IMG/VR virus record: IMGVR_UViG_3300042006_000176
Coordinates: 1-31,240 of that record
From: a virus
Reading direction: 5' to 3' (one strand)
Length of the DNA: 31,240 nucleotides
Shown: positions 11,112 to 15,341 of the stretch, one piece after another
Layout of the letters: every line of letters begins with the position of its first letter
Position numbering within the stretch: the first letter of the stretch is position 1
Notes under the pieces: model-generated
What the model was told of the DNA's origin: nothing
Database searches by the model: none
Seen by the model: only the letters and a program-made list of their open reading frames with translations
Position numbers and translations under genes: made by a program

Positions 11112-11396
11112 TTAGGCGGCAGCTACCGGCTCGTCCTTGTCGTACTTCTCGCCGCAGAACATGCAGAAGTTGGCCTGCATGCTCATCGATTGTTTCTTGT
11201 CCTTCATCACGCCGGCTTTGGTCGGGGCCTGGTAAGTGACCTCAATCGGCATTATCTGGCGCGACACCATCAGACCCTCACCCAACATCAGCGCGTAGCC
11301 AGTAAGACGGGCGCTTAGGTTCTGATGACCCTCCGGAAGCTGAGCGGGTAGTGCTTCAAGCAAGCGGCGCTCCGTTTCTTGTCTGCAATTGCACAT
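11112..11396 (-). CDS. Small protein with Cys pairs at both ends, 94 aa
   Basis: I choose ATG 11396 (MCNCRQETERRLLEALPAQL) because AGAGGT lies upstream; the open frame reaches 11483. CNC at the N-terminus and FCMFCGEKY near the C-terminus could together form a zinc site. A 50-bp stem-loop (11434-11483) lies 37 nt upstream of the start, similar to those ahead of the genes at 12608 and 12861. It heads the leftward run of genes downstream of the terminator at 11544-11569. Confidence 0.6.
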   Translation of the reverse strand: MCNCRQETERRLLEALPAQLPEGHQNLSARLTGYALMLGEGLMVSRQIMPIEVTYQAPTKAGVMKDKKQSMSMQANFCMFCGEKYDKDEPVAAA

Positions 11397-11433
11397 CGCA
11401 ATGACCTCTGTGGTTGATCCAACAAAACTCGCA

Positions 11434-11483
11434 ATGCACTCATCCGCTCCGCTGGTTGCCGTTGGGCGCGGAAGGGAGTGCAT
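11434..11483 (-). promoter_or_regulatory. Stem-loop H3 upstream of the gene at 11396
   Basis: On the minus strand ATGCACTC (11483-11476) pairs perfectly with GAGTGCAT (11441-11434), enclosing 34 nt that can form an inner CCGC/GCGG stem. The 3' arm continues GCATTG, as in H1 (12886-12908) and H2 (12635-12656). It lies between the terminator at 11544 and the gene start. Confidence 0.5.
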
Positions 11484-11543
11484 TCGGGATTGGTCGGGAT
11501 TTTGATGACTAGCTGCGCGGGCTCATTGCGGTGCGACGCGCAG

Positions 11544-11569
11544 AAAAAAGCCCGCGTGAGAGGCGGGCT
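11544..11569 (-). terminator. Intrinsic terminator after 11584-12012 gene
   Basis: AGCCCGC (11549-11555) and GCGGGCT (11563-11569) form a perfect 7-bp stem with a 7-nt loop, followed on the minus strand by six T (11549-11544). It ends the leftward cargo gene at 11584-12012. Transcripts from PL must read through it to reach the early operon below 11396. Confidence 0.85.
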
Positions 11570-11583
11570 TCAGGGGGCAGGCT

Positions 11584-12012
11584 TCAGAGGCAGTCGGACT
11601 TGCCTATCTGAAACTCAACTATCGGTGAGCTGGTTGAATCCTTATACAGAAGGTTAATGGAAAGACCCGTTTTTACGAACTGTCCTAAACCTTTTTCATT
11701 GCAGAATGCAGAAACTGCAAGCGCTTTGGCGTCCGCGGTGAACTCATCGGTATCGATTTCGTCCTTCGCTACTTTTGTGAGTGTGTAGGAGATACGCATG
11801 ACCTCATCGCTGTAGGTCACCGAGTCGATGCGAGTTGAGTCATCAGATGCTTTTCCGGACTGAACACTCATGATTAGCGCGAGACCCTTTAGCTGGCGTT
11901 CACGCTCCTGCATTTTCTCTTCCGGAGCAGTCTTCGCATGCCATACCTGTACCAAGATAAATAGCAAAGTCACTGCCGAGAAAAATATGATTATTCCGCG
12001 ATTCTGTTTCAA
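11584..12012 (-). CDS. Membrane-anchored cargo protein, 142 aa
   Basis: Translation starts at TTG 12012 (a TAA lies three codons upstream, so no earlier start is possible). An N-terminal membrane anchor or uncleaved signal (GIIIFFSAVTLLFILVQVWH) is followed by an acidic, probably periplasmic domain with Cys near residue 104 and at residue 141 (AFCNEKGLG and KSDCL), which may form a disulphide. It has low GC, lies downstream of a possible promoter around 12030-12070, and has its own terminator at 11544. These are marks of a lysogenic-conversion gene. No family recognised with confidence. Confidence 0.6.
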   Translation of the reverse strand: MKQNRGIIIFFSAVTLLFILVQVWHAKTAPEEKMQERERQLKGLALIMSVQSGKASDDSTRIDSVTYSDEVMRISYTLTKVAKDEIDTDEFTADAKALAVSAFCNEKGLGQFVKTGLSINLLYKDSTSSPIVEFQIGKSDCL

Positions 12013-12073
12013 CTGGGGTTACCGTAGCAAAAGGCCATTATTTATTTGACCACGCCTGCGGGACCAGCTCAAG

Positions 12074-12202
12074 TTACCCGAGCTGCCGGTTACGTCTCCG
12101 GCGCCGAGTTCCACGGCCGTGTTCAGTTCGCCAGCGCTCGATAACAACCGATTCTGGGATTTGATGCAGGTGGGCGGTTATAGGCCGCAGTTTCGTCCGC
12201 AT
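12074..12202 (-). CDS. Possible small basic protein, 42 aa
   Basis: ATG 12202 (MRTKLRPITAHLHQIPESVV) follows GGAG by about 10 nt; the frame stays open to an ATG at 12289 that lacks a ribosome-binding site. The C-terminus is extremely Arg-rich (HGRGTRRRRRNRQLG). It fills the gap between the 90-aa gene and the cargo gene and has coding-like composition, but no family is recognised. Confidence 0.4.
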   Translation of the reverse strand: MRTKLRPITAHLHQIPESVVIERWRTEHGRGTRRRRRNRQLG

Positions 12203-12335
12203 CGGATTGCGATCTCCCTGAACTTTAATCAGCACCTCCCTCGCGAGCGGGCGCCCTGCCTGGAAGATCGCAAACCGATGCGCTCTCATAGAGAGGATCG
12301 GGCAGTTAACGACAGGCTGTCGTGGCGCTGGTTGT

Positions 12336-12608
12336 TCAGTCGTCTTCGCCTTGTGCGAGCATCTTCTCGATGTCGGCGGCTCCGGGTTTCTTCCAGTTTT
12401 TAATCAGCCCGGTGTCCAGATCGATGTTCAGGATCAGGTAATCGCCGTAGTGCTGTCCGGGGAAGAAGTCCGGCACGTAGCCTTCATAGCTACCGACTTC
12501 CTCGCCCTGAGCGTCTTTCAGACCTGCGGCGAATCCATCGCGGACCTTGATGTAGAGGTGCAGCTCAGTCACGTCGACCTGCACCGTTTTTTGCGTGTTG
12601 ATTTGCAT
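12336..12608 (-). CDS. Conserved small Pseudomonas-phage protein, 90 aa
   Basis: ATG 12608 (MQINTQKTVQVDVTELHLYI) is preceded by GGGAGG. The core VRDGFAAGLKDAQGEEVGSY and YVPDFFPGQHYGDYLILNID recall a widespread family of short early phage proteins of unknown function. It is beta-rich with an acidic C-terminus. The frame continues upstream to 12854, but the strong signal and the family-like start support 12608. Stem-loop H2 lies 26 nt upstream. Confidence 0.7.
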   Translation of the reverse strand: MQINTQKTVQVDVTELHLYIKVRDGFAAGLKDAQGEEVGSYEGYVPDFFPGQHYGDYLILNIDLDTGLIKNWKKPGAADIEKMLAQGEDD

Positions 12609-12634
12609 GCTGCTGCCTCCCGGTTGTTTTCCCA

Positions 12635-12656
12635 ATGCACCCGTCACCAGGTGCAT
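12635..12656 (-). promoter_or_regulatory. Stem-loop H2 upstream of the gene at 12608
   Basis: ATGCACC (12635-12641) and GGTGCAT (12650-12656) form a perfect 7-bp stem with an 8-nt loop. On the minus strand it is preceded by ACTG and followed by TGGGAAAACAAC and the GGGAGG ribosome-binding site. This matches the layout of H1. Confidence 0.55.
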
Positions 12657-12672
12657 CAGTGAAAAGGCCCGG

Positions 12673-12861
12673 TCAGCCTTCGCAGCCCATTTGATAGTTG
12701 CTTGCATGCTCAGCGCTGCAAAACGGCAACTCTCGAGTGCGAAGCACCTGACGGTTGGTGTATGGGTCGCGGGTTCGGTCGTGGATATTGCGGCGAACCA
12801 CCTTTTCGGCTGGCTTACCGCAGTACGTGCATATCGTTTGTGTAGCTGCTGCATCGCTCAT
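12673..12861 (-). CDS. Small zinc-finger-like protein, first clear PL gene, 62 aa
   Basis: ATG 12861 (MSDAAATQTICTYCGKPAEK) has GGAGGG upstream. CTYCG (about residues 11-15) and LPFCSAEH near the C-terminus give a two-knuckle zinc-binding pattern. It is the first well-supported gene of the leftward PL operon, about 330 bp from the promoter. Stem-loop H1 lies 24 nt upstream. A regulatory role is plausible but not shown. Confidence 0.65.
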   Translation of the reverse strand: MSDAAATQTICTYCGKPAEKVVRRNIHDRTRDPYTNRQVLRTRELPFCSAEHASNYQMGCEG

Positions 12862-12885
12862 CGTGTTGCCCTCCGTTGATTTCCA

Positions 12886-12908
12886 ATGCCGCCTCATAGA
12901 AGCGGCAT
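12886..12908 (-). promoter_or_regulatory. Stem-loop H1 upstream of the gene at 12861
   Basis: ATGCCGC (12886-12892) and GCGGCAT (12902-12908) form a perfect 7-bp stem with a 9-nt loop. On the minus strand it is preceded by ACTG and followed by TGGAAATCAAC and the GGAGGG ribosome-binding site. The flanks match H2 although the stem differs by compensating changes. Confidence 0.55.
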
Positions 12909-13015
12909 CAGTAAATCTGTGGTCTTGCTCTCCGCCCCATGCTCGGCGCCGCGGTTTCCCCACCTGGCCGCGTCACACATTTCGTGTTCGGTGTTATTCG
13001 CCGGCTGGCTTGCAT
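12908..13015 (-). CDS. Candidate 35-aa Arg-rich peptide in PL leader
   Basis: ATG 13015 opens MQASRRITPNTKCVTRPGGE and ends RRARPQIY. GGGAGGA lies about 10 nt upstream. It is basic (seven Arg, one Lys, two Glu) and sits where lambda-type phages encode the N antiterminator, but it is far shorter than N and no homology is seen. It may be a leader peptide or not translated at all. Confidence 0.25.
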   Translation of the reverse strand: MQASRRITPNTKCVTRPGGETAAPSMGRRARPQIY

Positions 13016-13193
13016 GGTTTGGCGTCCTCCCATATGGGGAGTCCGGCAGGTTCCAGAGCCTGCATGGGGATCGAAGTTTGTGTTTCGCGCTATGCCCGTT
13101 CCCGGGGATCGATCCGCGAAGATTCCAAATTGTGAAAGAGCGGCGGGTCTGTCGAGGCCCTTCGCAGTGGCTGTGTGTCGCTGCGATGGAAGG

Positions 13194-13222
13194 AATATAG
13201 GCAAACCCGTATTTAGTGTCAA
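13194..13222 (-). promoter_or_regulatory. PL: leftward early promoter
   Basis: On the minus strand a perfect -35 TTGACA (13222-13217) is separated by exactly 17 bp from TATATT (13199-13194). Transcription would begin near 13187. Repressor-type operator sequences overlap both boxes, so the lysogen should hold it silent. Confidence 0.88.
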
Positions 13223-13828: not shown

Positions 13829-14287
13829 TCAACCTCTGAACTCTCTAGCAAGAGAAACAAGGTCGAGAGCGGCGTAGCGGTCGCTCGAAGTTACAGGGTA
13901 GGTTGAATAAACGTAATCAATAAAAGCGTTGAAGTACATTGACTTTGTTTTTTTAATTACAGCGTCAAGTATCTGCTCGTCCCTCTCGGACAAATCTATT
14001 CTTCTATGATCGCCTGAATATTCTACTAAGTATTTGGTTGCTCCGTATGGGTTCTCTTGAGCAATAACCGAAAATCCTCGACAGTGTTTAACCGAGTCGA
14101 CCACATCGTCAACGTAAGGCCCGTAGTGGTTGAACACCCACCGAATATCTGTCATTTGCTCATCATCTAAAAGTGATGAAAACCAATCCGCTAAGTAGAC
14201 TAGCTTTGTAATTCTTGCTTTAGATAGTTCGTGTTTGTGCGGGTAGTGATAGCAGAGATATGCCACTATGTTCTGTAATCTAGTCAT
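13829..14287 (-). CDS. Panacea/SocA-like antitoxin-domain protein, 152 aa
   Basis: The N-terminal region LSKARITKLVYLADWFSSLL (residues 21-40), followed by RWVFNHYGPYVDDVV (49-63), carries the hallmarks of the Panacea (DUF4065, SocA-like) fold: a KL.YLADWF helix and a W..hyGPyv motif. Panacea proteins are broad-range antitoxins that bind and neutralise an adjacent toxin; SocA also acts as a proteolytic adaptor. I choose ATG 14287, which has AAAGGAGG at optimal distance; its ATGACTAG overlaps the stop of the upstream 353-aa gene by 8 nt, so the two are translationally coupled. It is AT-rich relative to the phage backbone. The likely partner is the upstream membrane GAF protein. Confidence 0.75.
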   Translation of the reverse strand: MTRLQNIVAYLCYHYPHKHELSKARITKLVYLADWFSSLLDDEQMTDIRWVFNHYGPYVDDVVDSVKHCRGFSVIAQENPYGATKYLVEYSGDHRRIDLSERDEQILDAVIKKTKSMYFNAFIDYVYSTYPVTSSDRYAALDLVSLAREFRG

Positions 14288-15341
14288 TTCGCATACCTCC
14301 TTTATCAAAACTTTGAAGAAAATCTTGCTCCACCGATGCTGGAGCAACTTTAATGTTAACTTCTCGATTCAACTCAAGGCCGTCTCGTAGAAATTTAGAG
14401 TGTATTCCCTGGTAGTCTGCGCAATAGGCACAAATTTTGCTTTCAATTTCGCCTCCTACGGTGCTGAAGAAGTCCTCTTCGGTGCTTTCGAAAACTATCA
14501 CACCTGTATGAGCGTCCGCGTCCGATATCGCCACTGCAACATATCTGCAGCTCTTCATTGCAAACCCCGAAGCCTGCGCCTGCTTAAAGCCATAGACGTC
14601 TTCCATGTGGCGAAAATATTCTGCCTCGTTTCCGAAGCCCGGGCAAACCCTTTCCACATGCTTCTGATGTTGCCATGCAAGGCCAATCACACCTTGATTC
14701 AATGCGAATTTTAGTCTGTGTGATTTCGCATATTCAGGGTTCTGAGAATATCTTGCAAGAAGGTAAAAGTCATTTCCGTATTCGTAATAAATTGATACTC
14801 GATCATGCGTAGATAGACCGATGCTTTTGTATGCTGCTTTAAGATGTGTAGTTACGAGTTCGGTGTGTAATTTTCGTAAGGATGATCTTAGTGTTTCGAT
14901 AGTCTCTTGCGAACTGTTGATGCCGTCGTTCAGGGACGGGATGGTGCTGTTTTCTAGAGTTAGGGTTTCAATTTTCTGCTTGAGAGAGGAAGAGTCACGA
15001 TATGTTCCTATGGAACCTATGATGATTAAGAAGCCGCCGACGAACATCCAAATAATGGGATGGCATGCATATATCCACGCTATTTCTAGCAAAGGATTTA
15101 TATCCTTTAGTTTTTCCTCAAGTTTGTAATTCCCTGCTAAGGCACCGCCGAATCCCAGTAAAATTGTGCCTATCGCTGTAAGTATTATATACAAGCCGTT
15201 GTCAACAGTTGCTCCGAGGTTTAGGAAAAACCTAGCTTCGCTGGAAAATCCAAATTTTGAAAAAAACCCTTTATTTGCGATCGCTTGTATTGGCTTCTCA
15301 AAAGTCGGGGAGCTTTTAGTTTTATCTGCAAAATCATTCAA
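14280..15341 (-). CDS. 2TM-coiled-coil-GAF membrane protein, putative Panacea partner
   Basis: The 353-aa protein has two transmembrane helices (about 47-69 and 88-112), a heptad-like coiled coil (118-165) and a C-terminal GAF-like sensor domain (about 180-305: RVSIYYEYGNDFYLLARYSQ, then LNQGVIGLAWQHQKHVE, then YVAVAISDADAHTGVIVF). GAF domains bind small ligands or sense redox or nucleotides. GGAGG precedes ATG 15341, 46 bp after the CI stop with no terminator between, so it is probably cotranscribed with the repressor. It occupies the lambda rexA/rexB position and is about 42% GC. It may be a toxin or trigger controlled by the downstream Panacea protein; alternatively a membrane sensor that acts by itself. 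Confidence 0.7.
   Translation of the reverse strand: MNDFADKTKSSPTFEKPIQAIANKGFFSKFGFSSEARFFLNLGATVDNGLYIILTAIGTILLGFGGALAGNYKLEEKLKDINPLLEIAWIYACHPIIWMFVGGFLIIIGSIGTYRDSSSLKQKIETLTLENSTIPSLNDGINSSQETIETLRSSLRKLHTELVTTHLKAAYKSIGLSTHDRVSIYYEYGNDFYLLARYSQNPEYAKSHRLKFALNQGVIGLAWQHQKHVERVCPGFGNEAEYFRHMEDVYGFKQAQASGFAMKSCRYVAVAISDADAHTGVIVFESTEEDFFSTVGGEIESKICAYCADYQGIHSKFLRDGLELNREVNIKVAPASVEQDFLQSFDKGGMRND

Follow-up and report, generated by a model that had tools for sequence, protein, structure and literature searches.

Two unrelated families of conserved RNA hairpins among the early genes of Pseudomonas phages, one of them a candidate translational operator

Introduction

The nearest described analogue of the main RNA family analysed here, invoked by analogy only, is found in cluster K mycobacteriophages, in which the elements SAS and ESAS recur immediately ahead of the start codons of some of the non-structural genes, which belong to different families (PMC3203893). 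SAS is a 13-bp sequence (GGGATAGGAGCCC) located at the translation start and ESAS a 17-bp inverted repeat beside the ribosome-binding site; a role in translation has been proposed for them, with the binder supplied by either the host or the phage (PMC3203893). The hairpins considered below are likewise repeated upstream of the starts of diverse non-structural genes, but they occur in other phages with a different host, and whereas SAS is a primary-sequence motif, they keep an architecture (a bulged A and wobble pairs) while their stems vary. By eye, the sequences appear to differ as well, the consensus that follows the bulged-A hairpin being CAACCGGAG.

A variable stem combined with an invariant unpaired nucleotide beside the ribosome entry site also characterizes the coat-protein hairpins of MS2 and PP7, which are phage translational operators, and the eukaryotic iron-responsive elements. 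The present family shares this combination; in those systems, however, the loop is conserved and the protein is known, whereas here the loops vary, the bulge lies well below them and many genes are served. With HK022 put, which suppresses terminators without a phage protein, and with the lambda nut and rrn boxA leaders, our hairpins have in common that they are conserved RNAs of early operons, but those elements are promoter-proximal and act on RNA polymerase, which matches a separate leader upstream (13131-13188) and not the hairpins themselves.

The DNA in question, hereafter the window, is a 31,240-base virus record from IMG/VR, and all of its features discussed below lie on the minus strand. 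An original prediction, made from the sequence alone, had singled out three related stem-loops (H1, H2 and H3) just upstream of leftward early genes. As detailed below, H1 and H2 do form one family, but H3 is a member of a separate one, so that there are two families in all.

Structure and conservation of H1 and H2

H1 (12878-12917) and H2 (12627-12665) are genuine elements and members of a single RNA family. Each folds as a single hairpin of 17 pairs (fold z = -5.4 for H1 and -4.2 for H2), in which the flanks pair as a lower stem under one bulged A. H1 consists of the lower stem GAUUU/AAAUC, the bulged A at 12912, a C-G pair, U·G, G·U and the upper stem AUGCCGC.../...GCGGCAU, while H2 has the lower stem UUUUC/GAAAA, the bulged A at 12660, a C-G pair, U·G, G·U and an AUGC stem above the bulge, and a GNRA tetraloop, GUGA. 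The stems, the common flanks and the compensating pairs between the two are just as originally described, and the flanked pattern ACTGATGC...GCATTGG indeed has two matches in the window, whereas 100 dinucleotide shuffles average 0. What had been missed is that the flanks, correctly recognized as shared in sequence, are largely the lower stem with its bulged A; the intervals first given for H1 (12886-12908) and H2 (12635-12656) capture the upper stems, and the full hairpins extend beyond both ends.

Scanning viral contigs with the pattern ACTGATGCN{8,20}GCATTGGRAA matched at least 120 stretches, and a scan of genome contigs matched many Pseudomonas prophages plus unrelated chance sequences. The chance sequences are readily told apart by their lack of a complementary stem, and the matches of this kind (98 of 252 rows, mostly non-Pseudomonas) were left out, at the cost of losing a few genuine members that have a single stem mismatch. 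In a sequence-only alignment of 66 copies (A1), 97.8% of the cells are paired and seven of the eight variable pairs show compensatory changes, the pairs of the AUGC/GCAU core being unable to vary there because the scan pattern fixes them. This bias was removed with a covariance model (R1), which scores H1 at 57.3 bits (E 4.8e-14) and H2 at 67.2 bits (E 7.4e-17) and yields 101 matches in 59 loci (alignment A2), including divergent types with AAGC/GCUU, CUGGCC/GGCCAG, CUGC and UCUGC cores and with CAUC/GAUG lower stems. In A2, which unlike A1 was fitted to the model and so favours the structure, 13 of the 17 pairs are compensatory and 96.1% of the cells are paired, versus 33-55% for slid structures. 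The idea of a functional RNA backed by covariation is thus strongly borne out, and further covarying copies in related phages have proved to be numerous. No Rfam family is matched in the window at its gathering score, the best permissive match being mir-2067 with 24 bits where 70 are required.

The family follows a common plan, in which a lower stem is succeeded by the invariant bulged A, a C-G and a U·G pair, and 9-10 variable pairs, making a near-continuous helix of 17-19 pairs whose stem sequence varies freely. Its constants, YACU...GGR in sequence, amount to the bulged A, the C-G pair next above, and two U·G pairs, the second further up the stem, these wobbles being kept in 83 of 88 and 79 of 87 cells of A2. 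Both GNRA and 3-nt loops are found, with the bulge about 12 pairs below. Since wobble pairing is preserved on a single strand, and since R1 gives the reverse complement a mere 12-13 bits (57-67 bits for H1 and H2), the selected molecule is RNA and not DNA. None of the 46 pairs of copies from within one phage reaches 90% stem identity, against 12% of pairs between phages (permutation p~0.001), meaning that the architecture, and not the stem sequence, is kept; this divergence fits one selected architecture together with an avoidance of direct repeats.

Loci L052, L079 and L105, on other viral contigs, carry CTGATGC...GCATTGG hairpins that lack the bulged A, two of them with an ATG directly after the lower stem; these possibly constitute a separate hairpin family.

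Position relative to genes

In 83 of 95 distinct copies the hairpin is followed at 12-26 nt by a Shine-Dalgarno sequence and the ATG of an ORF with 30 codons or more, versus 3.3% of random places on the same strand, and the distance to the start peaks at 16-18 nt. On the other side, an upstream ORF of 40 codons or more ends right at the hairpin in 58 of the 95 copies against 23% at random; both features occur jointly in 49 of 95 (52%), compared with 0.7%. The 57 loci counted have one to three copies per phage, 150-1100 nt apart. Behind them lie genes for 85 distinct proteins matching 46 PHROG families, the commonest named ones being sigma/LuxR-like, CsrA-like and TerB-like; as these genes are unrelated, the hairpin belongs to the intergenic gap and not to any one gene.

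In the window, gene A (12676-12861, 62 aa) starts with an ATG 16 nt after H1 and gene B (12339-12608, 90 aa) with an ATG 18 nt after H2; neither product has a Pfam match. Counted from the GCAT arm, the start codons are 24 nt (H1) and 26 nt (H2) away, and that of H3 follows at 37 nt, in agreement with the original prediction. Relatives of gene A have the hairpin in four cases and lack it in none, and in one ortholog family that usually has a hairpin it is absent where the gene lies directly behind a promoter; for such counts with and without a hairpin, the core pattern misses AUCACU-type copies, and only individually read examples were used.

Phage genes resembling csrA/rsmA stand directly 3' of a bulged-A hairpin in loci L415, L416, L449, L459, L460 and L466. 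A patch of 60-76 nt in the window (12265-12340, minus strand), containing CUCUC-UAU-GAGAG, is 95-97% identical in the phages PseuP_224 and Aurca01 and partly so in SC_8_H2H8_2017, with flanks that are otherwise unrelated, and may be another conserved RNA.

H3 as a member of a second RNA family

H3 (11426-11493) does contain the perfect stem initially reported, but its supposed kinship with H1 and H2 does not hold: it has no flanks in common with them, and R1, run unfiltered and with E values as high as 10 allowed, finds no match at 11434-11483. The window holds 124 perfect 7-bp stems with loops of up to 40, and these, along with the missing R1 match, spoke for a chance stem, an explanation that was overturned by a conserved apical element and by covariation in relatives. 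H3 is built of an outer stem (AUGCACUC/GAGUGCAU), an inner stem (UCCGC/GCGGA), an apical GCC-CAAC-GGC and an AACCA bulge, and it thereby has the features (outer stem, inner stem, apical GCC-CANC-GGC, AACC bulge) of a conserved RNA family, unrelated to that of H1 and H2, which was traced via the apical element GCC-CANC-GGC plus AACC. The covariance model of this family (R2) scores H3 at 75.5 bits (E 3.2e-15). In an alignment of 54 H3-type copies (A4), 94.1% of the cells are paired versus 28-40% for slid structures, and 10 of the 19 pairs are compensatory.

R2 matches 71 of 249 Pseudomonas genomes and none of 229 in a class sample, where the anchor lacks the H3 type and hence offers no positive control, the same model and tool having produced matches in the Pseudomonas sample. 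In the loci checked there is one H3-type copy per phage, which as a rule follows the last H1/H2-type hairpin at 0.3-1.6 kb. A start codon follows 27-40 nt downstream in 31 of 33 cases; in the window it is the ATG of a 94-aa gene (MCNCRQETERRL..., 11112-11396), 37 nt after the outer stem. An upstream stop directly precedes the element in just one of 33 copies, and because such stops are so rare H3 may work differently from H1 and H2. We found no description of either RNA in the literature, which is weak evidence of novelty given that subscription papers were mostly beyond our reach.

Host range

R1 matches 124 of 399 genomes (species) of one Pseudomonas genus and 49 of 298 genomes in a family sample. 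The anchor genome is the sole match in an order sample of 195 genomes, and a class sample adds a single marginal match among 273 others besides the anchor (G569/L470, E 4e-4), which was not accepted as a member and was left out of the count; outside Pseudomonadaceae, R1 thus matches at most one of 467 genomes. Each of the 40 chromosomal neighbourhoods examined contains between 8 and 100 ORFs with relatives in hairpin phages, and by this gene content the chromosomal carriers of H1/H2-type hairpins look like prophages. The plasmids searched for the H1/H2-type hairpin gave no match. Two phages recorded from the cyanobacterium Leptolyngbya (L509, PP438408.1, and OP828577.1) have a pL leader of the Pseudomonas type and a hairpin resembling H1; they may have been assigned to the wrong host, owing to contaminating Pseudomonas.

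Possible function of the hairpins

Our tentative reading, which we regard as not quite an even bet, is that H1 and H2 are translational operators at intercistronic ribosome-binding sites. They would represent two copies of a dispersed cis-acting hairpin family scattered between genes in the pL (leftward early) operon of temperate Pseudomonas phages, the typical seat being right after an upstream stop and about 16-18 nt ahead of the next start codon. An RNA-binding factor, most likely host-encoded, would recognize the invariant kink (the bulged A between the lower stem and the C-G/U·G pairs) together with the helix shape, the stem sequence itself presumably not being read. Bound beside the Shine-Dalgarno sequence, this factor would block or position the 30S subunit, and several unrelated early genes could thereby be tuned together. 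The analysis directly shows the structure, conservation, position, strand and range of the family and the divergence of its copies within a phage. From the fixed spacing to start codons, the strandedness and the invariant kink we infer ligand-dependent control of translation initiation, and the ligand, its host origin and the sign of its effect all belong to this inferred part of the model. The Shine-Dalgarno sequence has a mean unpaired probability of about 0.4-0.55, so it is about as open as its surroundings and not sequestered by the hairpin, which means that any repression would need the ligand. As a counterpoint, a hairpin and a ribosome-binding site moving together as a recombining module would also give a fixed distance to the start.

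Translational control by a phage protein had been suggested originally; the fixed start distance suits the first half of this proposal, but a phage protein finds no support. No protein family occurs in all of the 13 hairpin phages compared, most of them nearly whole, the best being present in 9 of 13 (BLASTP at 1e-3, which could miss small, divergent proteins), and an all-against-all BLASTP likewise found none in all 58 loci, with a best family in 31. Among the loci and phages compared, these figures led us to set aside a phage-encoded binder shared by every carrier. Because no family is present in all 13 phages, a host reader is weakly favoured, consistent with the restriction to Pseudomonadaceae.

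Some more specific candidates were also discarded, namely CsrA/RsmA sites (most loops have no GGA) and the A-rich motif of Hfq/Crc (not seen by eye). Mimicry of the type I-F CRISPR repeat, as an RNA anti-CRISPR, was dismissed on inspection, stem bases varying freely here; it is this repeat that UUCACUGC and the GCAGC...GAAA end resemble.

The main rival to the operator reading, though in our judgement an unlikely one, is that the hairpins are processing or stabilizing sites for RNase III or RNase E, at which the polycistronic early mRNA would be cut between genes to give the cistrons a protected or fresh 5' end. Early mRNA of phage T7 is processed between genes, and the long near-continuous helix of 17-19 pairs, the intercistronic position of several copies per operon and the free stem sequence would all suit such a role. 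Processing alone, however, leaves unexplained the invariant bulged A with its C-G/U·G pairs and the tight distance to the start, as well as the restriction to Pseudomonadaceae (RNase III being, to our knowledge, universal).

Next comes a ligand-free insulator, less probable still, in which the hairpin would do no more than tie up the RNA behind the upstream stop, keeping the following ribosome-binding site accessible for initiation that does not depend on the upstream gene. The frequent location exactly between stop and Shine-Dalgarno sequence agrees with this, as do the freely varying stems and the ortholog family lacking the hairpin where no gene intervenes between promoter and start. Yet any stable hairpin would then suffice, and the invariant bulge and wobble pairs would have no explanation.

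We consider it very unlikely that H1 and H2 act on RNA polymerase as antitermination elements of the HK022 put or lambda nut type, the other function originally suggested for them. They are conserved RNA hairpins in early phage transcripts, and the early operon does possess a boxA-type leader. It follows a putative pL promoter, TTGACA-17-TATATT (13194-13222; 11 of 12 consensus positions), upstream of the operon with H1-H3, and comprises tandem hairpins and a boxA-like CGCTCTTTCACA at 13142-13131 (GCTCTTTAACA in most relatives). The leader (13131-13188) is conserved in more than 70 loci with compensating stem changes visible, and 48 of 58 loci have a boxA-like site no more than 2.5 kb ahead of their first hairpin, versus 14% in the control. 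As the whole-leader fold in the window is no better than shuffles (z = -0.5), the case for antitermination by the leader rests on the comparison between phages, which marks it as a better candidate for a put-, nut- or rrn-like element than H1 or H2. HK022 put consists of promoter-proximal tandem hairpins; H1 and H2 are single and intercistronic, H1 beginning about 280 nt after the -10 box and behind the first ORF of the operon. Further points against antitermination are the number of copies, as many as three in one operon among the 57 loci, with the majority at a set distance from a start codon, and the absence of boxA from the sequence profiles on either side of H1/H2-type copies; moreover, the leader would already suit the role.

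The first ORF just mentioned (12908-13015), as read from the sequence, encodes an arginine-rich product of 35 residues and ends with a UGA (12910-12908) inside H1; its product could be an N-like protein or a leader peptide. Between cI and the pL promoter (13829-15341, minus strand), a SocA/Panacea antitoxin-like gene lies beside an ORF of 353 aa that matches DUF973 only weakly, a pair that is a possible toxin-antitoxin or exclusion cassette.

Most improbable of all is that the hairpins are conserved junctions for early-gene exchange with no RNA role, as their occurrence in the same classes ahead of unrelated genes in different phages might suggest, for pairing in the RNA is under selection, as the compensatory changes and the kept G·U pairs show, and a homology junction would require similar copies, whereas those of one phage have diversified.

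Implications

Two covariation-supported RNA families thus occur in about 30% of the sampled Pseudomonas genomes and correspond to no Rfam family at threshold. The bulged-A hairpins stand at a fixed distance ahead of dozens of uncharacterized phage early genes, csrA-like and sigma/LuxR-like regulators included, and could serve as markers of true start codons in small early genes. Going beyond the operator reading, one may speculate that Pseudomonas temperate phages possess a post-transcriptional regulon of early genes, with two unrelated RNA families downstream of a boxA leader, the H1/H2 type present once or in several divergent copies and the H3 type as a single copy, and with the bulged-A hairpins read, since no phage protein is shared by all carriers compared, by an undescribed conserved Pseudomonas host factor; on the patterns summarized here, we hold this larger picture to be doubtful. 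The reader of the 40-nt hairpin could be a host or a phage translation regulator used across unrelated phages. If the regulon proposal is true, there would be a host RNA-binding activity, so far undescribed, that many unrelated phages exploit.
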